Origin: an uncultured Alphaproteobacteria bacterium
GTDB taxonomy: Bacteria; Pseudomonadota; Alphaproteobacteria; RF32; CAG-239
Direction: 5' to 3'
DNA: 32,381 bases
NCBI GenBank assembly: GCA_905235385.1
Contig: CAJOLB010000021.1
Location: forward strand, 1-32,381
In this document: piece after piece, positions 2 through 28,530 of the stretch
Numbering within the stretch: the stretch's first letter is position 1
Layout: every line of letters starts with the position of its first letter
Program-made: the position numbers and the translations under genes
Notes under the pieces: generated by a model
Told to the model about the DNA's origin: nothing
Databases searched by the model: none
The model's input: the letters and a program-made list of their open reading frames with translations, nothing else

Positions 2-3000
2 GATGATTTTTATGAAGTTGTCGGCAGCGTTTTGTCTTCGGGTATTGTTTATAACGATGCGGGGCAGGCCATAGGAAGGCTCGCCGGAAACGGTTCGTAT
101 ATTAATTTTGAGGGGCAGAATATCGGTTTTGTTTCGCCTTCGGGTTATGCTTATCGTCAGGCAGACAGCGGTTATGTTTTGGAAGGAAAGCTGATTTCTT
201 CAAAAATGGTTGTTTCTCTTGAGGGAGCTTTTATCGGAAGCGTGGCGCCGGGTGGTCAGGTAACGGATTTTGACGGAGCGATGATCGGTCGCGTTCATGC
301 AAACGGTTATGTTTATGACGGATCGGCAAATATTATCGGACGGACAGTGAAAACAGCTTATGCCTTTGATAACAGCGGAGCGTATTTCGGGCTTGTCAGT
401 TATGACGGAGATGTTGTCTTAAACGGGAAATCGGTCGGAAAGCAGAGAGCTGACGGAAAAATCGTTAACTTAAAAGGCGAAGTTGTCGGTTTTAAGGTTG
501 AGCTTAATGCGGTTGCGGTTTCAACGGAAGGCAGATATTTAGGTTATTTGGCGCCGAACGGACAAATTTTGAAAAACAAAGGCGAGGTTGTCGGTTTTGT
601 GGGACCGCGTCGGACGGTGAAAAATAAATCAGGCGAGGTTATCGGTCAAATTGCCGAGAAAGGACCTATATTTGATTATTTAGGCAGAGTTAAGGCTGAA
701 GCAATGCCGAACGGACAGGTTGTTTCTTTTGAGGGTTCGACACTTGGATTTATGAAGGGCGGTCTTGCTTTTGATAATGCCGGATTTATGTTGGGCTCTG
801 TTATGGAACCTGCCTTGATTTTAGATTTAAATCAAAATGTTATAGGCTTGACAGGCGTTGGCAGTGAGTTTGTGTTAGGGGCTCAAAAATATGTGGTTTC
901 GCCGCTCGGATATGTTTTTTCGGCAGACGGAGTGGTTGTCGGTGAAACAGCAGGCTTTTCGCCTGCTTATACAGAGGAAGGCTCATTATTCGGCTATCTT
1001 GATGTGAACGGAAAGGTTAAAGCGCCTGACGGAGAGACTTTAAGAATTAAGAGTGCAGGCTTTATCGCTGATGCGCAAAATAAAGTTAAAGCTCGTCAAA
1101 TCAATCCTTCATATGCGCTTATGTATGGAGGTTCGGATAAGGCATTGGTTTCAGATACGAATGAAGTATATGATGTGCAAAATAAGGTTTTGGCGCGCGT
1201 TTTGCCTGAATATGAGCTGGTGTCGGCTAAAGATGAAAATATGATGATGCCGGTTGTGGGTGATGCCGGTGAAAATTATGGCGTTGCATCTAACGTTCGC
1301 GGCGAATTAATCGGTTATACGGATATCAGAGGCGATGTTTTAAGCGCCGGTAAAGAAGTCGGCAAGATGAGCGGCAAAAATATCGTGTTAAATAAAAAAG
1401 GTATTTATTTGGGTTCTAATTTGCCGTTTAAGGCGATTGTTAATTCAAACTGTGAAAGTTTGGGTGTTGTGGGCGTTAAAGGCGACGCAAGATCAGGAAG
1501 AGACAATGTTTTAGGTAAGGTTTTAATCAACGGACAGGTTGTTTCGGAAGTTGGTCAATATTTGGGATATATGGCTCAAACTGCACCTGTTTATGATTTT
1601 GAAGGAAAATTGCTCGGCTTTTCAAATGCAACAGGTAAAGTCATTGATGACCAAAGACAGGTTGTGGGATGTTTAAGCTGGGACGGCAGAATGTATGAAG
1701 ACGGTGTTGTTTTCAAGGGTTCCAAAGTTAATGATGGTTTTGTTATGAGCTTTGAAAGTGCGTTTGTCGGACGCGTCAATGTTCAAAATGAATTTATCAA
1801 TAATGACGGAGATGTTGCCGGTTTTGCAAGGCCTAACGGAACAGTCGTTAATGAAAATAACCGCAAGTTCGGTCTGGTTTTCAAATATAAGGTGGCTTTT
1901 GACAGGAACAACAATTTTGTGGGATATGTTGCGCCGGACGGTAAAGTTTTGGACGACCAAAACAGAGTTTTCGGGAATGTAACTTATGATGGATTAGTCG
2001 TTTCTAAAAATAAGGCTGTCGGATATGCCCTTTATGATTTATATGTGTATGATGAAAACGGGCATGTGATGGGTTATTTGATGAAAAACGGCTCGGTGAT
2101 GAGTTTTGGAGGTGTTAATCTCGGAAAAGCTGACAGAGGTTTCTTGGTTTCAAAAGAAGGTGTTCTGATCGGGCGCGGAAATCGTGATTATTTCATCAGA
2201 GATAAGAAAAACGAAGTTATCGGTGAGCTTAAACTCTCAGGCAAGGTTTATGATTCAAACGGTGAGGAAATTGCTGACGTTTCCGGCAATGGTGATGTGA
2301 GAGACCAAACAGGCAAATTGCTTGCTGTTGCAAGACCTTTGCAATATTATGCCGCTCAATATAAGTCAGGAGCGGGACTTTCTGTGCCGCAGACAGAACA
2401 AGAGAGTCCTTTTAAGGTCGGAGTAATTGATGAGCCGGAATATGATGAAGACGAAAAAGAAACCGAAGATGATATGCCTTCTTATCGTCAAAAAGTTATC
2501 GGGGTTGTCTTTTCGCCTGATGGAAAATATTTAGGACAAGTGCTCGAAACAGGTGAGATTGTTTCGGATAGCGGTGATGTTGTCGGACGGGCTCAAGACG
2601 GATTGGCTTTTGATAAGGATAATAATTTAATCGGAACAGTTGATGAGAAACCGGAAGAAGATGTTTCTTCAAGCAAGCCTGAGCCGGCTCAGGCGCAAAT
2701 GCCTTCGACAATCTTTTTGCCTAAAGATGCTTACGGAACATCTGATGTTCCTTCAGACTTGGGACCGGGCGGCGGTTTCGGACCGAATGAAAGATATGAT
2801 CCTGTCAGAGCGAGAATGCTTGCAGAAGCCCAGGCTGTCAGACAAAGCGAAATTAAAGTCGGTAAATTAACTTCAAATGTTAATCCTTCATCGATCACCG
2901 GTTGGCAGTCAAACTGGGATAATGCGAACTTTACGATCTCATCTTGGCGCGTGGATATGAGCGAGATGATTTTGGCAGACAAGCCGATTCCGGCGGTTTT

Positions 3001-3901
3001 GGCCAGAACAATTATGGACAGCGGACTTGCAGGTTCTGTGCCGATTACGGCAATCGTGGAGAGAAATGTTTATGCGGAAGACGGCAGAAATATTGTGATT
3101 CCGGCAGGAAGCCGTGTGATGGGACAATCTTCGGGCGGATCAACCGGCGGATCAACCGGAAGTGCGGTGCGTATGGATATCACATGGACGAGGCTTATCA
3201 GACCTGACGGGTCGGCGTTTGAGTTTTCACAGGCTCAGACAGGCGATGCACAAGGCAGAGGCGGTGCACTCGGATATTTGGATCAGCAGCTGTTGAAGAA
3301 ATATACGCTTCCGATGGCAACCTCTTTGATGAGCGATGCTTTGGCTTATGTGATGGCAAGAGGGCAGACAACAACATCATCAGACGGAGCTTCAACACAG
3401 GATTCAAGGTCGCAGGCGGCTGAAGATGCACGTCAGCATTTCTTGGATAATATGGATGAGATTTTCAGAGATATTATGAATGATAAGATGAATATTGCGG
3501 CAGTGACTTATGTGCCGGCAGGAACGCGTTTGATTATTTATCCGAAAGTTGATTTGTGGCTCAGAACGGCAGAAAGAGAGAAAGAAATGGAAGAAAAAAT
3601 AAGTTCTCTCGGCAAGCCTGAATCTTTGATTGATGATGGTCGTCCGATTGGAAGTTTGCATGAAGGAGGAACGGAGAGCAGCTCGGCAGCAACCGGAGGT
3701 TCTTCTTCAAGGGTGGTTTATAGCGGAAATGATGGTTCTATTCAGCCGACAAGTGCGCCTTTGATTGATGACGGAGCTTATGAGCCGAAGAGAAGAAGAG
3801 CTGTTGCACCGGGGGTAACACCGCCGCCGCCCTCAACAAATGCAACTGTGCCTTCAAGTTCAAATTCGTCATCGGACAGTTCGTCCGGAGCGCTCTTTTA
3901 G
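2..3901 (+). CDS. VirB10/TrbI-family (DotG/IcmE-like) type IV secretion channel protein with giant N-terminal repeat region, 5'-partial
   Basis: VirB10-type proteins form the core channel that spans both membranes in type IV secretion systems. The reading frame is open to the window edge (codons from position 2 before a TTG at 32), so the true start lies outside. Residues 1 to about 770 (counted from the TTG) are a diverged tandem repeat of roughly 20 residues, approximately G-x-V-x-x-x-(D/N)-x-x-G-x-x-(V/I/L)-G-x-(V/L); a few more copies follow at about 820-870 after an acidic stretch. The VirB10-like domain is at about 970-1180 (MSEMILADKPIPAVL, then a stretch with IPAGSRVMGQ, and YVPAGTRLIIYP). 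The tail is rich in Pro and Ser. A long repeat region before a VirB10 domain is the DotG/IcmE architecture. virB11 follows after 12 nt. The VirB10 call is firm; Dot/Icm kinship is inference. Confidence 0.85.
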   Translation, partial: DDFYEVVGSVLSSGIVYNDAGQAIGRLAGNGSYINFEGQNIGFVSPSGYAYRQADSGYVLEGKLISSKMVVSLEGAFIGSVAPGGQVTDFDGAMIGRVHANGYVYDGSANIIGRTVKTAYAFDNSGAYFGLVSYDGDVVLNGKSVGKQRADGKIVNLKGEVVGFKVELNAVAVSTEGRYLGYLAPNGQILKNKGEVVGFVGPRRTVKNKSGEVIGQIAEKGPIFDYLGRVKAEAMPNGQVVSFEGSTLGFMKGGLAFDNAGFMLGSVMEPALILDLNQNVIGLTGVGSEFVLGAQKYVVSPLGYVFSADGVVVGETAGFSPAYTEEGSLFGYLDVNGKVKAPDGETLRIKSAGFIADAQNKVKARQINPSYALMYGGSDKALVSDTNEVYDVQNKVLARVLPEYELVSAKDENMMMPVVGDAGENYGVASNVRGELIGYTDIRGDVLSAGKEVGKMSGKNIVLNKKGIYLGSNLPFKAIVNSNCESLGVVGVKGDARSGRDNVLGKVLINGQVVSEVGQYLGYMAQTAPVYDFEGKLLGFSNATGKVIDDQRQVVGCLSWDGRMYEDGVVFKGSKVNDGFVMSFESAFVGRVNVQNEFINNDGDVAGFARPNGTVVNENNRKFGLVFKYKVAFDRNNNFVGYVAPDGKVLDDQNRVFGNVTYDGLVVSKNKAVGYALYDLYVYDENGHVMGYLMKNGSVMSFGGVNLGKADRGFLVSKEGVLIGRGNRDYFIRDKKNEVIGELKLSGKVYDSNGEEIADVSGNGDVRDQTGKLLAVARPLQYYAAQYKSGAGLSVPQTEQESPFKVGVIDEPEYDEDEKETEDDMPSYRQKVIGVVFSPDGKYLGQVLETGEIVSDSGDVVGRAQDGLAFDKDNNLIGTVDEKPEEDVSSSKPEPAQAQMPSTIFLPKDAYGTSDVPSDLGPGGGFGPNERYDPVRARMLAEAQAVRQSEIKVGKLTSNVNPSSITGWQSNWDNANFTISSWRVDMSEMILADKPIPAVLARTIMDSGLAGSVPITAIVERNVYAEDGRNIVIPAGSRVMGQSSGGSTGGSTGSAVRMDITWTRLIRPDGSAFEFSQAQTGDAQGRGGALGYLDQQLLKKYTLPMATSLMSDALAYVMARGQTTTSSDGASTQDSRSQAAEDARQHFLDNMDEIFRDIMNDKMNIAAVTYVPAGTRLIIYPKVDLWLRTAEREKEMEEKISSLGKPESLIDDGRPIGSLHEGGTESSSAATGGSSSRVVYSGNDGSIQPTSAPLIDDGAYEPKRRRAVAPGVTPPPPSTNATVPSSSNSSSDSSSGALF

Positions 3902-3913
3902 AAAGGAAAAAGT

Positions 3914-4885
3914 ATGAGCTCTTTTACGGTTTTGGAATCTGTTTTACGCCCGCTTTCTTATTGGTATAATCAAGAAAATATCGAAGAAGTGGCTATCAAT
4001 CGCGCCGGTCAGGTTTGGCTGAGATTGCGCGGAAAACGTGCGTATCCGTGGGTGATGTATGAAGATGAAAAACTCTCTAAAGAATATTTGACGGACTTGC
4101 TTTATATTGTTGCCAATACATATGAATTGCCTTTTGATCCGGTTGCGGGTTCGCCGCTTGTGTTTACGGATATTCCGGGCGGACACCGTTTTTCGGCGGT
4201 TTCAGGTAAAAATGTGATGTATGATGAAAATGATTTAACCGGCGGTGTGGCTCTGACAATTCGTGTTCACAGCGAAGATGTGGCTTTCGGTTTGGCAGAT
4301 TATGGTTTGACGCAAGGTCAGGCACTTCATAAAATCAATCCCTTAAAAGATATTAAGGATCCGGAAGATCCGTATGAACGTTTGTTGTTATCCATTAAGC
4401 GAGGTGATCATATTTTGGTCAGCGGTGCGACGGCAACAGGTAAAACAACGTTTTTGAACAATCTTTTGAAGATTTTGGACATTCACAAACGCATTATTAC
4501 CATCGAAGATACGCGCGAATTGATGGTTCCGCACCCGAACCGCGTGCATCTGGTTTTATCTCGTACGGAACAAACTAACCAAATGGATTATGCAAAAATT
4601 ATTGACCTTGTGGTTCGTTTTACGCCTGATGCGATTATCGGCGGTGAAATTTCAACGTCAAATGCAGGTGCGCTTTGGGAGCTGATGGGCTCAGGTCACG
4701 ACAACTGTTTAGCAACCATTCACGCGGAAAGTTCAGAGGCAGCCTATCAAGCCTTTACGGACCGTATTCTTCATACCTATCCTGCTATTGATCGTGAGAA
4801 AACAATTGAAGAAATGCGCCACAAGTTGCGTGTGGTGCAAATAAATAGAGACGGGAACTTGCGCGCCATCACCGAAGTAACATAA
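3914..4885 (+). CDS. virB11: VirB11-family type IV secretion ATPase
   Basis: Hexameric cytoplasmic ATPase that powers type IV secretion at the inner membrane. The 323 residues show the family motifs in order: Walker A GATATGKT at 171-178, Asp box ITIEDTREL at 195-203, Walker B-like DAIIGGEIS at 239-247 and His box GHDNCLATIHAESS at 261-274. The N-terminal 150 residues fit the VirB11/PilT N-terminal domain (PLVFTDIPGGHRFSAVSG). Start: ATG preceded by AAAGGAAAAAGT, 12 nt after the VirB10-like gene, so the two are co-transcribed. It appears to be the last gene of the operon, because a hairpin element ending in a T-run follows its stop directly. DotB or another secretion ATPase is possible, but VirB11 fits best with the VirB10-type neighbour. 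Confidence 0.9.
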   Translation: MSSFTVLESVLRPLSYWYNQENIEEVAINRAGQVWLRLRGKRAYPWVMYEDEKLSKEYLTDLLYIVANTYELPFDPVAGSPLVFTDIPGGHRFSAVSGKNVMYDENDLTGGVALTIRVHSEDVAFGLADYGLTQGQALHKINPLKDIKDPEDPYERLLLSIKRGDHILVSGATATGKTTFLNNLLKILDIHKRIITIEDTRELMVPHPNRVHLVLSRTEQTNQMDYAKIIDLVVRFTPDAIIGGEISTSNAGALWELMGSGHDNCLATIHAESSEAAYQAFTDRILHTYPAIDREKTIEEMRHKLRVVQINRDGNLRAITEVT

Positions 4886-5852: not shown

Positions 5853-6080
5853 TTATGCTTTTTTGATACCGAAAGCACCAAATTTGCTGTTGAATTTTGA
5901 AACTTGACCACCGGAGTCAACCATGCGGTGGATACCTGTCCATGCAGGATGAGACTTCGGATCAATTTCCAAATTCATTTTATCACCTTTCTTTCCCCAC
6001 GTGGTGCGGACTTTGCACTCTGTGCCATCTGTCATCACGTATGTGATTTCGTGGTAATCAGGATGAATGCCTTTTTTCAT
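5853..6080 (-). CDS. rpmE: 50S ribosomal protein L31
   Basis: L31 is a small protein of the large ribosomal subunit that bridges to the 30S head. The 75-residue sequence begins [20 protein letters not shown] and contains the family signature [10 protein letters not shown] at about 40-49. It has a single cysteine, so it belongs to the zinc-independent form lacking CxxC. Start: ATG preceded by GGAGAAATATA. It has a promoter-like sequence upstream and a strong terminator downstream, so it is probably monocistronic, although the IMPase-like gene upstream is on the same strand. Confidence 0.95.
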
Positions 6081-6170: not shown

Positions 6171-6971
6171 TTATTTAAAAATTTCAAAAATCTTTTGATT
6201 CAAGTTAAAGTTTGTGGCAATTAAATCACCGGTTTTGCGGACTTCAGACATATCTTCAACGCGAATGTCTTTTTGATTTACGGAGCGAATCGAACCGCCG
6301 GCTTCAGTAATCATCAAGATGCCCGCATAAATCGAGCAGAGGTGATTTGAAAGGCTGATTGAAGCATCAAACTTTCCGCCTGCAAGATAAGCTAAATCAA
6401 GCGCTATTGAACCGCTGATGCGCAAATTTCCGGTCTTTTTTAAGATTTTAGAATGAAGATCGCTGATGTCTGACGACTTGTTTTTGAAAGACGAAGTTGA
6501 AGAAACAAGCGCCGACTCGATTTCTTTTAAAGAAGAAACGCGCAATCTCTCATGGTTTCGGTAACCTTCTTTGAACGCACCTTTGCCTTTTTGAGCAAAA
6601 AATGTTTCATCACGCGCCGGATTATAAATCACACCGCAAATGATTTCTTCATTTTCAATTAAGGCAACACTGACGGCAAAATCAGGATTTCCGTGTGCAA
6701 AGTTAATCAGCCCTTCAATCGGCGAAATTGCAAAATAGGACTTGCCGACAATCTTATCGGAGGGGGTAAAAACAGGGACATCCGGTCTGATTTTTGAAAG
6801 CTCGACCTTTAAGTTTTGTTCTAAACGGGTGTATGAATTCATTACAAAAGTTTTGATGCTTTTGATGGAGTTTTGAAGTTGTTCCAACTCGGCAAAGTCA
6901 CGATCAAGCGATGATGATGATTTTTTTGTGGCATCAACAATGCTTGTGAGTAAGGGCGAGATATATGGCAT
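6171..6971 (-). CDS. Inositol-monophosphatase-like protein lacking the catalytic metal ligands
   Basis: Overall this is an IMPase/SuhB-type fold: conserved stretches LINFAHGNPDFAVSVALIE, GVIYNPARDETFFAQKGKGA, GSIALDLAYLAGGKFDA and AGILMITEAGG align with the family, and 266 residues is normal. The Mg2+ ligands are gone. The usual DPLDGT reads S83-PIEGL (first Asp to Ser, second Asp to Glu86, Thr to Leu). The usual WDMAAG reads CSIYAG (Asp to Ser213). The GEE segment before the first motif is absent (FTPSDKIVG). Its ATG overlaps the efp stop by one base (TAATG), so the two are coupled. Inference: a non-catalytic binding or regulatory protein. SuhB is known to act in rRNA antitermination separately from catalysis, which makes a retained non-enzymatic role plausible but unproved. 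Confidence 0.8.
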   Translation of the reverse strand: MPYISPLLTSIVDATKKSSSSLDRDFAELEQLQNSIKSIKTFVMNSYTRLEQNLKVELSKIRPDVPVFTPSDKIVGKSYFAISPIEGLINFAHGNPDFAVSVALIENEEIICGVIYNPARDETFFAQKGKGAFKEGYRNHERLRVSSLKEIESALVSSTSSFKNKSSDISDLHSKILKKTGNLRISGSIALDLAYLAGGKFDASISLSNHLCSIYAGILMITEAGGSIRSVNQKDIRVEDMSEVRKTGDLIATNFNLNQKIFEIFK

Positions 6972-7534
6972 TATTTTGCTCTTTCAACATAGTTGACTTC
7001 AGTTGTGCCGACAACGATTTTTTCACCGACACCGATAAACGGCGGAACCATAATACGCACACCGTTATCTAAAATTGCAGGTTTGTAAGAAGAAGCTGCC
7101 GTTTGACCTTTGATGACAGGTTCTGTTTCAACAACCGTGCAGGTAACTTGAAGCGGTAATTCAACAGAAATCGGGCGACCGTTGATGTGAGAAATGCGAA
7201 CAATCATGCCGTCTGTTAAGAACGGACGAGAATCGCCTAAAATATCTGAGGGCATATTAAATTGTTCAAATGTTTCATTTTCCATAAATGTTAAACCGTT
7301 GCCGTCTTCAAATAAAAATTGGCAGTCTTTGTCTTCAACCATCATTTTTTCGATGGTGTCTTCCGTGCGGAAACGTTCGTTTGTTTTGGTGCCTTCTTCA
7401 ACAGATTTCATTTCGACCTGCATGAAAGCGCCGCCTTTGCCCGGTTTGATGTGTTGTGCTTTGGTGATTGTCCACGGTTTTCCCTTGTATTCAATAACCC
7501 AGCCGATACGGATAGAGCCTGCAAGTTGTTTCAT
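6971..7534 (-). CDS. efp: Translation elongation factor P
   Basis: EF-P binds between the P and E sites of the ribosome and relieves stalling at proline runs. At 187 residues it has full family length, with three beta domains: KOW-like N-terminus (1-65), middle OB domain (66-127), and C-terminal OB domain ending GEKIVVGTTEVNYVERAK. The modified lysine is K33 in the tip loop KPGKGGAF, the form used by EpmA-type beta-lysylation. No modification enzyme lies in this window. Start: ATG with GGAG about 7 nt upstream. The downstream IMPase-like gene overlaps its stop by one base, so they are co-translated. Confidence 0.97.
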   Translation of the reverse strand: MKQLAGSIRIGWVIEYKGKPWTITKAQHIKPGKGGAFMQVEMKSVEEGTKTNERFRTEDTIEKMMVEDKDCQFLFEDGNGLTFMENETFEQFNMPSDILGDSRPFLTDGMIVRISHINGRPISVELPLQVTCTVVETEPVIKGQTAASSYKPAILDNGVRIMVPPFIGVGEKIVVGTTEVNYVERAK

Positions 7535-7854: not shown

Positions 7855-8352
7855 TTAAGGTTTTAAACTTTCTAAAATGACAAAATCCGTTTGAAATGAT
7901 TGATAATCAATGTTTTCTTGAGGGTAGAGCGCAGATTGGATTAAGAACATTTCGTTATACCAAGAAGTGAGCTCTTTTATTTTATCTGATCCGTCTTGCC
8001 ATGCTTTGAAAATGATGAAATCAGGCTCACATTCGGAAGCAATCATTGCTTCGTGGCGGCGGTTTCGGCAGATGATACCGGTAAATTTATTTTTCAAATC
8101 TTTCGTTTGCGTTTTGAAATCCGTTTTGATATTTTTTGATTTTGAAAGGTCTAAAACAATGCCGTCAAGGTTATATGCCAGAACATCACTTAAGGATAAA
8201 CCCAAAACAAGTTTGTTTTTTGCTTTAGCTTTCAAAGTAAATTCGTTTTTGAAATGAGACGAAAGGTTTTCATCTAAGATGAAACATTCAAGTTTTTGAT
8301 CGTCTATTAAGCTCAAATCTTCATGAGATATTTTTAAGATAATCTTTTGCAT
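7855..8352 (-). CDS. Small degenerate thiamine-phosphate-synthase/TenI-like protein
   Basis: 165 residues, short for ThiE (usually around 200-220). The recognisable part is ICRNRRHEAMIASECEPDFI at about 94-113. It matches in position and pattern the late strand of ThiE/TenI-type TIM barrels, where a conserved segment reads roughly H(S/T)-x-x-E-A-x-x-A-x-x-x-G-A-D-Y-(V/I). Genes of this type near gap/pgk and efp are common in Alphaproteobacteria. The N-terminal half (MQKIILKISHEDLSLIDDQK) is hard to place, and I cannot see the phosphate- or pyrimidine-binding residues. An enzyme role is doubtful; it may be a divergent remnant. No signal peptide. The stop lies 4 nt after the terminator of the opposing RNA. 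Confidence 0.45.
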   Translation of the reverse strand: MQKIILKISHEDLSLIDDQKLECFILDENLSSHFKNEFTLKAKAKNKLVLGLSLSDVLAYNLDGIVLDLSKSKNIKTDFKTQTKDLKNKFTGIICRNRRHEAMIASECEPDFIIFKAWQDGSDKIKELTSWYNEMFLIQSALYPQENIDYQSFQTDFVILESLKP

Positions 8353-8436: not shown

Positions 8437-8700
8437 ATGGAAACGCAAAAATTAGAGCGGACAGAGCAGGCGATTAATCGCTTAAAGGAAAGTGTGGGTA
8501 CTTTGTCGCAAATTGTTGATGAGAAAAAGGCTGCATTTGCTCAGAAAAAAGAAACTTATAAAAATAATATGGCAGAAAAAACGCAACAAATCGAGGCCTT
8601 GCGTAAAGCATTGAGTATGGCCGCTCAGAAAATCAGCGACAGCGTTGAAAATATTGATGAGGTAATCAGAGAAAATGGCTCAGGTAACAATTCAAATTAA
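8437..8700 (+). CDS. Short coiled-coil protein preceding zapA (DUF4164-like position)
   Basis: 87 residues from the ATG at 8437; an upstream ATG at 8392 would add a Lys/Phe-rich leader and is less likely. The sequence is almost entirely a charged helix with heptad-like spacing (RLKESVGTLSQIVDEKKAAF, later KTQQIEALRKALSMAAQKIS). It ends in a polar Asn/Gly/Ser tail. The next gene, zapA, starts 26 nt inside it, so translation is coupled. A small coiled-coil gene directly before zapA is typical of Alphaproteobacteria and is often annotated DUF4164. A role with ZapA at the division site is inferred from position only. Confidence 0.65.
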   Translation: METQKLERTEQAINRLKESVGTLSQIVDEKKAAFAQKKETYKNNMAEKTQQIEALRKALSMAAQKISDSVENIDEVIRENGSGNNSN

Positions 8701-9265
8701 CGGGCGAGAATACGGCATTGCTTGCGGAGATGGTGAGGAAGCGCATATTATCGAGCTTTCAAGAATTTTAGATGAGAAAGCAAAGCTCCTTACTCAAAAC
8801 GGTGCGCAAATTAACGAGAATCAGCTATTGGCGATGATCGGGCTTTTGGTTGCAGATGAGATGCAAGATGCTCAAAAAGGGGTGAGTGTGCCGGAAGTGC
8901 GCGTAGAAACGGTGGAGAAAATCGTTGAGAAAACGGTAGAGGTTCCGGTAGAGAAAATTGTCGAAGTTGAAAAAATTGTTGAAGTCCCGGTTGAGAAAAT
9001 TGTTGAGAAAACGGTAGAGATTCCGGTCGAAAAGATTGTCGAAGTTGAAAAAATTGTTGAAGTACCAGTGGAGAAAATCGTTGAGAAAACGGTAGAAGTT
9101 CCGGTCGAAAAGATTGTCGAAGTTGAAAAAATTGTTGAAGTGCCTGTCGAAAAAGAGACGAATCCGAGCATAGATGTTATCGCCGTTGATGATGCTCTTT
9201 CAGGGGCAATAAAAGAGTTAACAACTCAAATAAATTTGCTTGCAACAGATATCGAAAAGTGGTAA
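8675..9265 (+). CDS. zapA: Cell division protein ZapA with an inserted Val/Glu/Lys/Pro repeat
   Basis: ZapA binds FtsZ and bundles its filaments at the division ring. Residues 1-70 are the ZapA domain: MAQVTIQINGREYGIACGDG, then HIIELSRILDEKAK and NQLLAMIGLLVADEM. Normal ZapA is about 100-130 residues; this one has 196. Residues 81-158 are three copies of a 26-residue unit built from VEKIVE, KTVEVPVE and VEKIVEVPVE blocks. A C-terminal helix follows (AIKELTTQINLLATDIEKW), resembling the normal coiled-coil end. The repeat therefore sits between head domain and C-terminal helix, as a spacer. Start ATG at 8675 overlaps the preceding gene. The 6S-RNA-like locus follows directly, a usual arrangement. 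Confidence 0.85.
   Translation: MAQVTIQINGREYGIACGDGEEAHIIELSRILDEKAKLLTQNGAQINENQLLAMIGLLVADEMQDAQKGVSVPEVRVETVEKIVEKTVEVPVEKIVEVEKIVEVPVEKIVEKTVEIPVEKIVEVEKIVEVPVEKIVEKTVEVPVEKIVEVEKIVEVPVEKETNPSIDVIAVDDALSGAIKELTTQINLLATDIEKW
8915..9148 (+). repeat. Three tandem 78-bp repeats inside zapA
   Basis: Units 8915-8992, 8993-9070 and 9071-9148. Each starts GAGAAAAT(C/T)GTTGAGAAAAC. Differences are few and mostly synonymous (for example GTCCCGGTT, GTACCAGTG and GTGCCTGTC all encode Val-Pro-Val). Length is a multiple of three, so copy-number change keeps the frame. Confidence 0.97.
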
Positions 9266-9279
9266 TATAAAATCATAGA

Positions 9280-9447
9280 GACGGAGCTGTCTGACGCGAT
9301 TAACCGCATAGTCTATCCGAGCCAACATTATATGATTTTAGGGAACCGTCTCTGTTCAGATCGTGGTCTGATTATATGGTGCCCACCTTGACGAAGCGGT
9401 TCGATATGAATGTTGAATTTATTGTTAAACGGTCAGACGGCTCTTCT
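9280..9447 (+). ncRNA. ssrS: Probable 6S RNA
   Basis: 6S RNA binds sigma-70 RNA polymerase and mimics an open promoter. The locus lies directly after zapA, the usual place for ssrS in many proteobacteria. A long closing stem is seen: GAGCTGTCTGAC (9284-9295) pairs with GTCAGACGGCTC (9432-9443), 12 pairs with one G-U. Nested inside are AACCGC pairing with GCGGTT (in GAAGCGGTTCGAT) and TCAGA-N6-TCTGA (about 9356-9371). About 160-170 nt between the stem ends is right for 6S. GGTGCCCACCTTGACG lies on the 3' side. Family assignment rests on position, length and stem pattern, not on a covariance search. Ends are approximate. Confidence 0.65.
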
Positions 9448-24960: not shown

Positions 24961-27900
24961 TTAAAAGGCGTATTTGAAGCCTAAGTCAGCTTTTGTATGA
25001 TAGTTTCGGTTGATGTAGGATAAGAATCCGCCGTAAATCGATATGTCGCCGATTTCATATGAGAGTTTTGAGCGCAAAACAAGGTAGTTGTCGTTTTGGT
25101 CTTCATTTCTGATTTTGAAGTTGCCGCTCATTTCATTCATTGACATTTTTAAATCATACGGATCTGAAAATTCATGATAAAGCATTGCCCCTGTCATAAA
25201 GCTCAAACGCTTTGTTTTAGAAAGTTGTTTTTCTTTTGAAAAGTAAGCACCAAAGCCAAATTCTGCCGAATATGTTTGTTGACGTTTGGCAGATAAGCTG
25301 AATTGCTTTGAGTCTTCTTTGAGCTTTGTTTGATAAGCTGATAGATTAAATTCTGCAGCAGGAGCTAACTCAAAATCGCCAGATAAAAGAGGATAGCGGA
25401 TTTGAGTTGAAATGCCTGCCATGCGTTTTTCAATTTTTCCGTCATAATTTTTGCCTTGGTATCCGTTTCGCTCGTATGTGCCATAGGTGTAGGCAAGTTT
25501 TGGATTGAAAAGGAACTGAAAAGCGTTTTTCTTTGTTTTAACCGGCATTTGTAATTCAAAGTTTTTGCTTGTGCGAGTATCTGAGCGGCGGCCGTTATCG
25601 GTGTGCATATCAGAAAGAGAAAGGGCGATGCCGAAATCCGTATTGTCGATTTTTTTGCCGGACAAAGCGTATCTTGTTTGAGAACGTTCTTTTGTGCTGA
25701 TTTGCGGCGAAAGATTGCCTGAAAGTGCAAAAGATGTTTCTTTGTTTTCAAGCATTTTTTCGCTGATGGTAAAATCAAGTTCTTTTTGCATAATAAGGTC
25801 TTCGCCTGAAATACGCGAGACAATGTTTTGACCGCTGAGAGTTTTTAAGGTTTGATTAAGTGCTTTTGTTGATGTCTTTTGTTTTAAGGTGTTAAAGAAA
25901 GCCTCATTGTTTAATGCTGCGTAGTTTTGTTCCAAAAAGTTTGCGAGAGATGAATTTGAAACAATTTTATCAAAACTTTTCTTGGTTAGAACAACATCGC
26001 TTCCGTTGAGGTTGGCATTAAACATTGCAGATTCAGAGCTTAAAGAAAGGTTTTCGGTGTTTTGCGCATTAATGGCATTTGAAAGGGTGTATGTCGAGTT
26101 AAAGCCGGAAGAGACAACATCGCTTGCAACGGATAAGTTGCCTTCAAGAGAAGAAGCGGTGAAATTTCCTCCGTTTGTTATTTGAACACCGCGTGAGCCG
26201 AGATTTAAGGAAGATGTTGAGGCAATTGTTCCGGCATTGACAAGTTTTGCGCCTTTTTCAAGATAAATTGCATGTTCGCCGTCCGGTGTTAAGCAACCTG
26301 TTGATGTGCAGGTGTAATCGTCATCCCAGTTAAGCTCATCACTGTTTATTCTAAATTGGAAAAAGCCTGTGTTTGTGACGGTGGCGTTATTTGTGGCAAA
26401 TATGCCGTATGTTTTGTTTGTTGAGGGGCCTGTAACGAAAATGCGCCCAGAATTGGCTACGCTTCCGCCATCACTATAAATGCCGTATGCATAACCGCTA
26501 TTTGAAGTAACGTTAATTTCATAACGCTGGGTTGAGTTGATGACTTCGCCGCCTTTGTTATAAATGCCGTATGCATCACCGCCGTAGCTTTCAACAGTTA
26601 AACCACTCGTGTTGGTGACTTTTGCTGTGCCGTCATTGGTTTGCTCTAAATAAATTCCGTAAGCATTTCCGTCTCCGGCTGTTGTTTTAGCAGAAATGAT
26701 TCGACCGTTTGTGATTTCACCGTCTTGAATGTATGCACCATATGCAGAGCCGTTGGTTGATTTTGCAACAACAGATTCAGTCGCAACGGTTTCATTTTCA
26801 TCCTTGACGTTTGTAATAGAACCACCTTTTGTGTATAAACCATATGCATCGCCGCTATCGGCTGTTGAATTAACTATACCTGAGTTTTCGAGCGTTCCGG
26901 CAGAATACAGACCATAGGTGTTTCCATATCCGCTTGTGTTAATAACCGTAGTAGTCGAAAACAGAGCAAAATAGTTTCCGCGTTTTGTTAAATGGTAAAC
27001 GGCGCCATCAGATGAACCGTTGTAAATTCCGTAGGCAGAACCGTTTCCAGTATTTGTGACAGTAATGTCTGATATCATTAGGGCAGAAGAATATTCTTCA
27101 GCTTTGCTTTCATCAAAATCGCCGCTATATATCTTGCTGTTGCCTAAAATACCAAAAACGCTTCCATTGCCTTTATTGTTGATGTTTATTGTTGAAATTG
27201 AGGTTCCGGCACCTTTGTTCGCAAGAGTATCAACAACAATACCGCTTTCATCTGTAATGACATAGTTATTATAAATTGTTTCCGCATTGCTTGAATATAA
27301 TCCATAAACTCTGCCGTCACTTTGATTTTCAATGTTGATTGAGGCATTGTTGTTTAAAAGTAAATATTTTTGAGTGGTGTCTTTAGTGCCAAGTTTTAAG
27401 GCTTCACCAAGGGCATTTCCGTTGTCATCATAAATAATGTCATCTTCTACGTGGCCGACAACATCTCCTGTGTTGTTGTAGGCAATCGAGCCATCTAAAT
27501 AACCTTTTAAAACACCGGAGGAACTATACCAGAGGATATGATTTTGATCATCATATTTGTAGTCCGCAATCGTGATTTGAACTTCAACGGCATTTAATTT
27601 TGAATAGTCATTTGCCATTTTATCTGAGGAAAGAAGGTAATTGTGAGGTGTTTGATCGGCATCGTAAAAAAGACCGTATACGTCTGTATATTCTGTATTC
27701 GAAAGGGAAATATAGCCGCCTTGATTGTAGTTAGAGTTAATATTTGGATTGCCGTATATATCTGTATCTTTCTTTTTCACACAAAGGCCGGTGCTGTCTT
27801 TGCCATAGCCGGTTGCGCAATCATTACAAAGAGCTGCAGTATAACCAACGTTGCAAACGCAGGCTCCGCCTTTTTGGTGACCGTGTTCGCAGGCAAGAGT

Positions 27901-28530
27901 TTCATAGCACTGTTTTGTGCCGTAGTTGCCGTAACTGGGGGCGCAGGTGTCGCATTTTTCGCCGCTGTAGCCGGTAGAGCAGGTGCAAACGCCGTCTGAC
28001 ATTGTTCCATGAACGCAGTTCGGATTTGTTTTTTTATCTGAGCCAGAGCCGCCGCCACCGCCGCCACCCGAAAGGGCAATCGCTGTTCCGGCAACAGCTG
28101 CGACAACACCGACACCGATTAAGGCTTTTGTGGTAAAACTCATGCCGGGTTTGCTATATTTTGCAACGGTTGCGGTGTCTATGTTTTTGACCGGATTTTC
28201 AATAACCGAGCGCGCAAAGTCTTGATAACCGCTGATTTTCCATGTGCAAGGGTGGGATGGATTGGCACCGGATTGTAAAAACGATTTGTAGGCTGTTTTG
28301 TTGCGCTTTTTGGCGGCAACGCACAGACCGGTGTCGCCGTTTGGGTTTGTGGCATCAATATTTAAGCCTCGGCTGACGGCATTATTCATGGCGCTGACCT
28401 GCCCTTTTGAGGCTAAATTATAAAGGGCATTGAAATTTTCGGGGGAGAGGCTTGAAAGATATGCTTCCGCTTTGGGTGAAAACAAGAAAAAACAAGCACC
28501 TAAGACATATACAAATCGTTTTAAAATCAT
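24961..28530 (-). CDS. Autotransporter-like surface protein with ankyrin-type N-terminus, EGF-like cysteines and YGIY repeats
   Basis: 1189 residues. Signal peptide 1-23 (ending SPKAEA). Ankyrin-like repeats about 30-95 (LYNLASKGQVSAMNNAVSRG; GDTGLCVAAKKRNKTAYKSF). A hydrophobic segment 136-154 is followed by seven Gly. A cysteine-rich EGF-like block lies at 172-250 (CTCSTGYSGEKCDTC and CVCNVGYTAALCNDC). About 338-376 resembles the repeats of the VirB10-like protein. At about 400-720 are roughly ten YG(I/L)Y-centred repeats typical of a beta-helix passenger. The last 260 residues look like an autotransporter beta-barrel, ending in aromatic Phe (ADLGFKYAF). The internal hydrophobic segment is odd for a classical autotransporter. 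A surface adhesin is likely. Start: ATG at 28530 with GGAAAAG upstream. Confidence 0.8.
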   Translation of the reverse strand: MILKRFVYVLGACFFLFSPKAEAYLSSLSPENFNALYNLASKGQVSAMNNAVSRGLNIDATNPNGDTGLCVAAKKRNKTAYKSFLQSGANPSHPCTWKISGYQDFARSVIENPVKNIDTATVAKYSKPGMSFTTKALIGVGVVAAVAGTAIALSGGGGGGGSGSDKKTNPNCVHGTMSDGVCTCSTGYSGEKCDTCAPSYGNYGTKQCYETLACEHGHQKGGACVCNVGYTAALCNDCATGYGKDSTGLCVKKKDTDIYGNPNINSNYNQGGYISLSNTEYTDVYGLFYDADQTPHNYLLSSDKMANDYSKLNAVEVQITIADYKYDDQNHILWYSSSGVLKGYLDGSIAYNNTGDVVGHVEDDIIYDDNGNALGEALKLGTKDTTQKYLLLNNNASINIENQSDGRVYGLYSSNAETIYNNYVITDESGIVVDTLANKGAGTSISTININNKGNGSVFGILGNSKIYSGDFDESKAEEYSSALMISDITVTNTGNGSAYGIYNGSSDGAVYHLTKRGNYFALFSTTTVINTSGYGNTYGLYSAGTLENSGIVNSTADSGDAYGLYTKGGSITNVKDENETVATESVVAKSTNGSAYGAYIQDGEITNGRIISAKTTAGDGNAYGIYLEQTNDGTAKVTNTSGLTVESYGGDAYGIYNKGGEVINSTQRYEINVTSNSGYAYGIYSDGGSVANSGRIFVTGPSTNKTYGIFATNNATVTNTGFFQFRINSDELNWDDDYTCTSTGCLTPDGEHAIYLEKGAKLVNAGTIASTSSLNLGSRGVQITNGGNFTASSLEGNLSVASDVVSSGFNSTYTLSNAINAQNTENLSLSSESAMFNANLNGSDVVLTKKSFDKIVSNSSLANFLEQNYAALNNEAFFNTLKQKTSTKALNQTLKTLSGQNIVSRISGEDLIMQKELDFTISEKMLENKETSFALSGNLSPQISTKERSQTRYALSGKKIDNTDFGIALSLSDMHTDNGRRSDTRTSKNFELQMPVKTKKNAFQFLFNPKLAYTYGTYERNGYQGKNYDGKIEKRMAGISTQIRYPLLSGDFELAPAAEFNLSAYQTKLKEDSKQFSLSAKRQQTYSAEFGFGAYFSKEKQLSKTKRLSFMTGAMLYHEFSDPYDLKMSMNEMSGNFKIRNEDQNDNYLVLRSKLSYEIGDISIYGGFLSYINRNYHTKADLGFKYAF

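Follow-up and report, generated by a model that had tools for sequence, protein, structure and literature searches.

The open reading frame at positions 6171-6971 (minus strand) of the window, by which we mean the whole stretch of 32,381 nucleotides analysed in this study, encodes a protein of 266 aa that has almost certainly been retained as a pseudoenzyme. The protein is the vertically inherited SuhB of its lineage with the catalytic site gone, as seen in its sequence. Its retention is probably best explained by a non-enzymatic role as a Nus-type factor in rRNA synthesis, a reading to which we give a probability of about 0.6, because E. coli SuhB is known to act independently of catalysis and the domain of its partner persists in these genomes.

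The gene starts with ATG. The protein matches the PF00459 (Inositol_P) profile with 105.7 bits (E 3.9e-30), over the cut-off of 27, while seven NCBIfam models match it with scores that each fall below their own cut-off, including the inositol-1-monophosphatase equivalog NF008027 (84.5 bits, curated cut-off 332). It lies directly after efp, encoding elongation factor P (6971..7534, minus strand; TIGR00038, 231.6 bits, cut-off 185.8), and on the same strand, which is the position by which alphaproteobacterial SuhB orthologues are recognized. The two genes share one base in the sequence TAATG, made up of the efp stop codon TAA and the ATG of the SuhB homologue. Downstream is rpmE, encoding ribosomal protein bL31 (5853..6080, minus strand; PF01197, E 2.4e-24). 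Upstream of efp, at 7855-8352 (minus strand), there is a gene for a 165-aa protein without a Pfam or NCBIfam match, for which tblastn gave matches in 91 of the 119 family loci introduced below. The source genome (1.33 Mb, 98.09% complete) has a single PF00459 match, which is this open reading frame. A second, intact suhB, which the first-pass annotation had suggested looking for, was not found in this PF00459 search, and the idea that the protein is a paralogue aiding an active enzyme is rejected for the source genome on the same grounds.

The metal ligands of human and M. tuberculosis IMPase are named as Glu/Asp/Asp/Asp in a study that lists E70, D90, D93, T95, E213, and D220 as the metal and substrate residues of the human enzyme (PMC2080633). 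These human residues were placed on the SuhB homologue by motif position. In the alignment, the side-chain ligand columns 70, 83, 86, and 213 (E, D, D, D) read P, S, E, and S, so that codon 70 (6762..6764), formerly the first Glu of GEE, is now Pro, codons 83 (6723..6725) and 86 (6714..6716), formerly the first and second Asp of DPxDG, are now Ser and Glu, and codon 213 (6333..6335), formerly the Asp of WDxAAG, is now Ser, all on the minus strand. SPIEG(L), which begins at residue 83, stands where DPxDG would be expected, CSIYAG, which begins at residue 212, stands for WDxAAG, and GEE is absent with TPSDK in its place. The replacement of DPLDGT and WDMAAG by SPIEGL and CSIYAG and the missing GEE, as read in the first-pass annotation, were therefore borne out by the alignment. 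Its further statement that all visible metal ligands are replaced holds as well (P70, S83, E86, and S213); the change at residue 86 is a conservative D-to-E, which leaves one acid among the four ligand positions. The columns of the substrate-binding Glu (human 213, column 206) and Thr (human 95, column 88) are occupied by Ser and Leu, and across the family the reference Glu and Thr are kept in 0% and 1% of sequences. Judged from these columns, the SuhB homologue lacks the set of four metal ligands that would mark an active inositol monophosphatase, and the set of residues lost in the family appears to match the metal- and substrate-binding residues of IMPases.

The family, which belongs to RF32, a group living in the rumen and gut, was searched with the SuhB homologue protein, giving matches in 122 of 126 genomes. 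The analysis used 119 orthologous loci, the source locus included, after three genomes (G011, G004, and G198) were left out as fragments or as having a paralogue only; two of the 119 are truncated and were excluded from the tables of 117 rows. The named near relatives go under Alphaproteobacteria bacterium, uncultured proteobacterium, or uncultured Azospirillum, and several come from the rumen, reticulum, cecum, colon, or rectum. The 32 loci of this set also include a 24% match in Prochlorococcus, which is no near relative. None of the 119 loci keeps the first Asp of DPxDG, which is replaced by Ser (84), Ala (13), Asn (13), Cys (5), Thr (3), or Glu (1). The Glu ligand is retained in 12 of 119 loci, the second Asp in 74 of 119, with Glu in 30 more, and the third Asp (WDxAAG) in 23 of 117 sequences. 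All four ligands are found together in none of the 119 family loci, vs. all 31 reference loci from other alphaproteobacterial families. As references, the 30 best PF00459 matches (L002-L031) were taken, which favors intact copies, and L193 from genome G101 was added. A further 37 proteins from lower-ranked matches in the class, one of which (L304) comes from the same genome as reference L027, are intact in 36 cases, including 27 of the 28 that are linked to efp, the class sample being part of the class genomes. Some family genomes have a second PF00459 match, and the eight such proteins that were aligned all keep DPIDG. By alignment, ligand loss characterizes the family throughout the sample and is not peculiar to this open reading frame.

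In all 119 family loci efp lies directly upstream on the same strand, at gaps of -1 to 108 bases, with the one-base TAATG overlap in 103, and rpmE lies downstream on the same strand in 111, six of the other eight ending too early to tell. However, efp is also upstream in 29 of the 31 reference loci, which encode ligand-intact proteins, and the linkage is therefore older than the ligand loss. On this comparison the efp-suhB order is ancestral, and the link to efp does not explain the loss of catalysis. The suggestion in the first-pass annotation that the overlap with efp ties the dosage of the protein to translation consequently finds no backing here, as an ancestral gene order offers no evidence on the pseudoenzyme.

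The loss is concentrated at the active site. Among 68 columns that are near-invariant in the references, the family keeps the majority residue at only one of nine active-site columns vs. 52 of 59 others, and mean entropy in the family is 2.11 bits at the active-site columns and 0.71 bits at the other conserved columns (permutation p 5e-5). The scaffold elements RDFxEIExLQ, GxGA, RLRV, GK/R, and EAGG are kept, and some non-catalytic columns have changed too (e.g., 10, 34, 41, 51, and 158). This pattern bears on the proposal that the protein remains catalytic through an altered active site, in which the residual acids support another metal, substrate, or chemistry. Acids do persist, given that 104 of 119 loci have D or E at column 86 (E86 in the SuhB homologue), with acidic residues at column 70 in 49 of 119 and at column 213 in 42 of 117, but Asp-1 is gone throughout, and the nine active-site columns vary too widely to resemble a newly fixed active site, making a changed enzyme improbable.

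Comparison of the SuhB homologue gene with 11 close relatives gave dN/dS values of 0.066-0.129 (Nei-Gojobori) from the eight comparisons with a defined dS, the other three being saturated. Over 66 pairs, median pN/pS is 0.27 for the SuhB homologue and 0.06 for efp. These ratios indicate that the gene is under purifying selection, less tight than that on efp. The faster evolution relative to efp is what might be expected if the gene were decaying and the ligands had been lost through relaxed selection, as is the lack of a PF00459 match in seven of eight genomes (69-88% complete) of the order of G118, discussed below. Against this stand the dN/dS of 0.07-0.13, the lack of internal stops among the family matches listed, the 16 invariant columns among 91 family sequences, and the conserved efp overlap, so that decay is very improbable and was rejected on the dN/dS, open frames, and invariant columns. 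Family-wide loss of Asp-1 with a kept scaffold and low dN/dS instead argues for a retained pseudoenzyme, as had been proposed from the single sequence, and the comparison of efp-side orthologues with a selection analysis, suggested at the same time, thus agrees with that proposal.

Structure prediction, a further check named in the first-pass annotation, also returned an intact fold. The AF2 model, built on an alignment of 91 of the 119 family sequences that remained after length and 88% identity filters, has a pLDDT of 92.4 and a pTM of 0.91. In the Foldseek comparison the ten best matches are all SuhB, from Bartonella, Pseudomonas, and E. coli. Chains from 6tqn, the rrn antitermination complex, and from 6ib8, the SuhB-NusA AR2 structure, are within the best 20, and the best 50 listed are SuhB, IMPase, and IMPase-like phosphatases. 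In the model the IMPase fold is intact, and the model is silent on activity.

A scaffold kept without its active site has a precedent in E. coli, where catalysis is not required for the role of SuhB as a Nus factor (PMC6614801; precedent also in PMC4807359). The first-pass annotation had drawn on SuhB's non-catalytic role, and the precedent is apt (PMC6614801). We propose that myo-inositol phosphatase activity may have been dispensable in these small genomes, so that the scaffold alone remained. The SuhB homologue would then bind NusA at its C-terminal repeats and also the rRNA leader, as E. coli SuhB does, and this docking may help NusB and S10 to join the rRNA transcription complex, thereby supporting rRNA maturation.

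The distribution of the partner domain is compatible with this proposal. NusA of the source genome, read as a 522-aa frame, has two TIGR01954 matches of 63.8 and 28.7 bits, the second being below the cut-off of 48.15. Two such matches were found in 105 of 107 family genomes, the exceptions being two genomes with a completeness of 59% and 61%. Such repeats do not occur everywhere, given that six of 14 control genomes have a match and two pass the cut-off. The contact of E. coli SuhB with NusA AR2 is mapped to K251 and L254 (PMC6614801). These residues align with columns 259 and 262, which are variable both in the family and in intact alphaproteobacterial SuhB, and as a test of the Nus role the AR2-contact residues are uninformative. 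Lys is present at column 260 in 92 of 119 family loci, which is only suggestive, and, as a point against the Nus role, the column of E. coli R184 (residue 185) has Arg in 94% of references and 1% of the family. Because the contact residues are unconserved even in intact alphaproteobacterial SuhB, the NusA/AR2 evidence is permissive for a Nus role and not decisive.

The family also carries a sequence motif of its own. Codons 134-141 (6549..6572, minus strand) read KEGYRNHE and are near-invariant in the family alignment; 30 of the 31 reference SuhBs lack residues 134-137, which form an insertion. The residues K134, E135, G136, R138, H140, and E141 occur in 93-100% of the 117 family sequences and in ≤6% of the 31 references, and D235 (92%) and R237 (90%) are family-typical as well. 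L193, the ligand-intact sister copy in G101, carries this insertion and also the second one at about residues 236-242. It has G136, R138, and D235 in common with the family, but is without K134, E135, H140, E141, and R237. The insertions therefore preceded the ligand loss, and the motif was fixed in part within the dead lineage. Within a Nus-type role, KEG(F/Y)RNHE may provide an additional or a substitute contact.

The same motif underlies the main rival to a Nus-type scaffold, namely that the pseudoenzyme scaffold has been re-used for a new partner, perhaps EF-P, bL31, or the ribosome, by way of KEG(F/Y)RNHE and RDFxEIExLQ. The near-invariance of the motif residues in the family and their rarity in the references are in keeping with this, as are the frequent TAATG overlap with efp and the position of rpmE. 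The linkage to efp is, however, ancestral and common to intact proteins, so that no new function is needed to explain it, and RDFxEIExLQ is conserved in the intact references too. A new partner is accordingly unlikely, though less so than a changed enzyme, and the Nus-type scaffold is preferred.

Ligand-poor SuhBs are found beyond this family as well. Weak PF00459 matches in other alphaproteobacteria revealed further examples in four other orders, and most of the cases checked adjoin efp or rpmE. All five homologues found directly after efp in the order of G158 are without ligands (six genomes searched, of which G283 has no such copy), as are all three in the order of G122. For the order of G168, L214 and 30 further loci were sampled out of 76 genomes with a match; 28 of the 31 loci read are without one or more ligands, and efp was found in none of the 31 examined stretches. 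All 20 loci read from family f69 of this order have rpmE, and not efp, as the neighbor of the dead SuhB (see also L214, 1216-1428), and one SuhB-like copy from the reading of this order is intact (L252, G202). A single dead copy immediately follows efp in genome G118, seven of the eight genomes of its order being those without a PF00459 match mentioned above. In G135 (2.8 Mb), the efp-linked SuhB (L317, 2462-3404, minus strand) has Glu replaced by Gly and the third Asp by Asn with DPLDGT intact, and this partial case is possibly an early stage of loss.

Whether these cases go back to one loss or several was addressed using two trees. In the rpoB tree five family genomes join G101 (support 99/97); the tree does not include the source genome, whose rpoB is partial, or G122, for which there was no rpoB match, the branches of G118 and G168 are very long, and the bootstrap had not settled. 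In its group table the three other dead rows form one side of a branch only when set against the five family rows, with 19 unlabelled rows uncounted. In the SuhB tree, which has long branches and leaves the intact copies of G139 and G202 unresolved, the family groups with the intact efp-linked copy of G101 (support 93/87, an unstarred branch). More than one loss is pointed to because the family groups with ligand-intact G101, and G139 is intact too; the independence of the losses rests on the rpoB tree, the intact efp-linked copy of G101, and the differing replacements. In AU tests on the SuhB tree, a single origin of all 19 dead sequences as one clade was not rejected (p 0.184), nor was one clade of the 12 dead sequences outside the family (p 0.189) or a clade of the family and the G122 order (p 0.091). 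Given these tests and the very long branches, recurrent ligand loss in the Alphaproteobacteria is considered likely and no more than that. For the wider reading the odds are about even: SuhB would have shed catalysis several times (in the family, in the G158, G122, and G168 orders, and in G118, with G135 partial) while keeping the scaffold and usually efp or rpmE, the non-enzymatic role being its core function, the phosphatase expendable, and a new interaction motif having been built on the dead enzyme.

The remainder of the window contains several other features. The gene at 32-4885 (plus strand) encodes 1289 aa, with beta-flower repeats and, at the C-terminal end, a TrbI-like domain (PF03743); a T2SSE-family ATPase follows, and together they look like part of a type IV secretion-like system. 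The protein encoded at 8675-9265 (plus strand) combines a ZapA domain at residues 4-78 and a long tail made up of VEKIVEVPVEKIV-type repeats, and directly after zapA there is a 6S RNA at 9281-9447 (plus strand; RF00013, 50 bits, gathering score 46.4). The protein encoded at 24961-28530 (minus strand) is 1189 aa long and matches EGF-laminin and beta-flower families weakly.

In E. coli, the phosphatase and rRNA-complex activities reside in one protein. Lineages with a dead site and a kept protein offer a natural separation of function and point to the surfaces that matter, and the retention of the SuhB homologue suggests that the non-enzymatic job can be the one that matters. Full-text searches of open-licence papers, the loosest of them judged by title and abstract start of the papers listed, gave no record of a naturally dead SuhB lineage. 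In practical terms, the automatic label “inositol monophosphatase” would mislead in more than 100 sampled family genomes.

Compared with known systems, the SuhB homologue has a fold like that of SuhB over its whole length, the counterparts being 3luz from Bartonella henselae, 9j90 and 8wip from Pseudomonas, and 2qfl and 6ib7 from E. coli. The best eight SuhB-type structures superpose with VIA Z of 33.0-34.2 and rmsd of 1.5-2.9 A over 233-254 residues at 26-33% identity. The other PF00459 paralogues in related genomes are presumably CysQ/HisN-like. Twelve of them were examined in the G158 and G122 orders, and although they belong to the same superfamily as the SuhB homologue, they keep the trio of catalytic Asp and have no efp in the examined stretch. 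Linkage to efp is shared with the alphaproteobacterial reference SuhBs, from 30 of 31 of which the homologue differs by a second insertion at about residues 236-242. The Nus factor SuhB of 6tqn and 6ib8 has a similar fold, and the source genome has the NusA C-terminal repeats, but the AR2-contact residues K251 and L254 of the E. coli protein are not conserved in the family. Unlike known SuhB, finally, the family is without the metal and substrate residues and has the near-invariant motif at residues 134-141.
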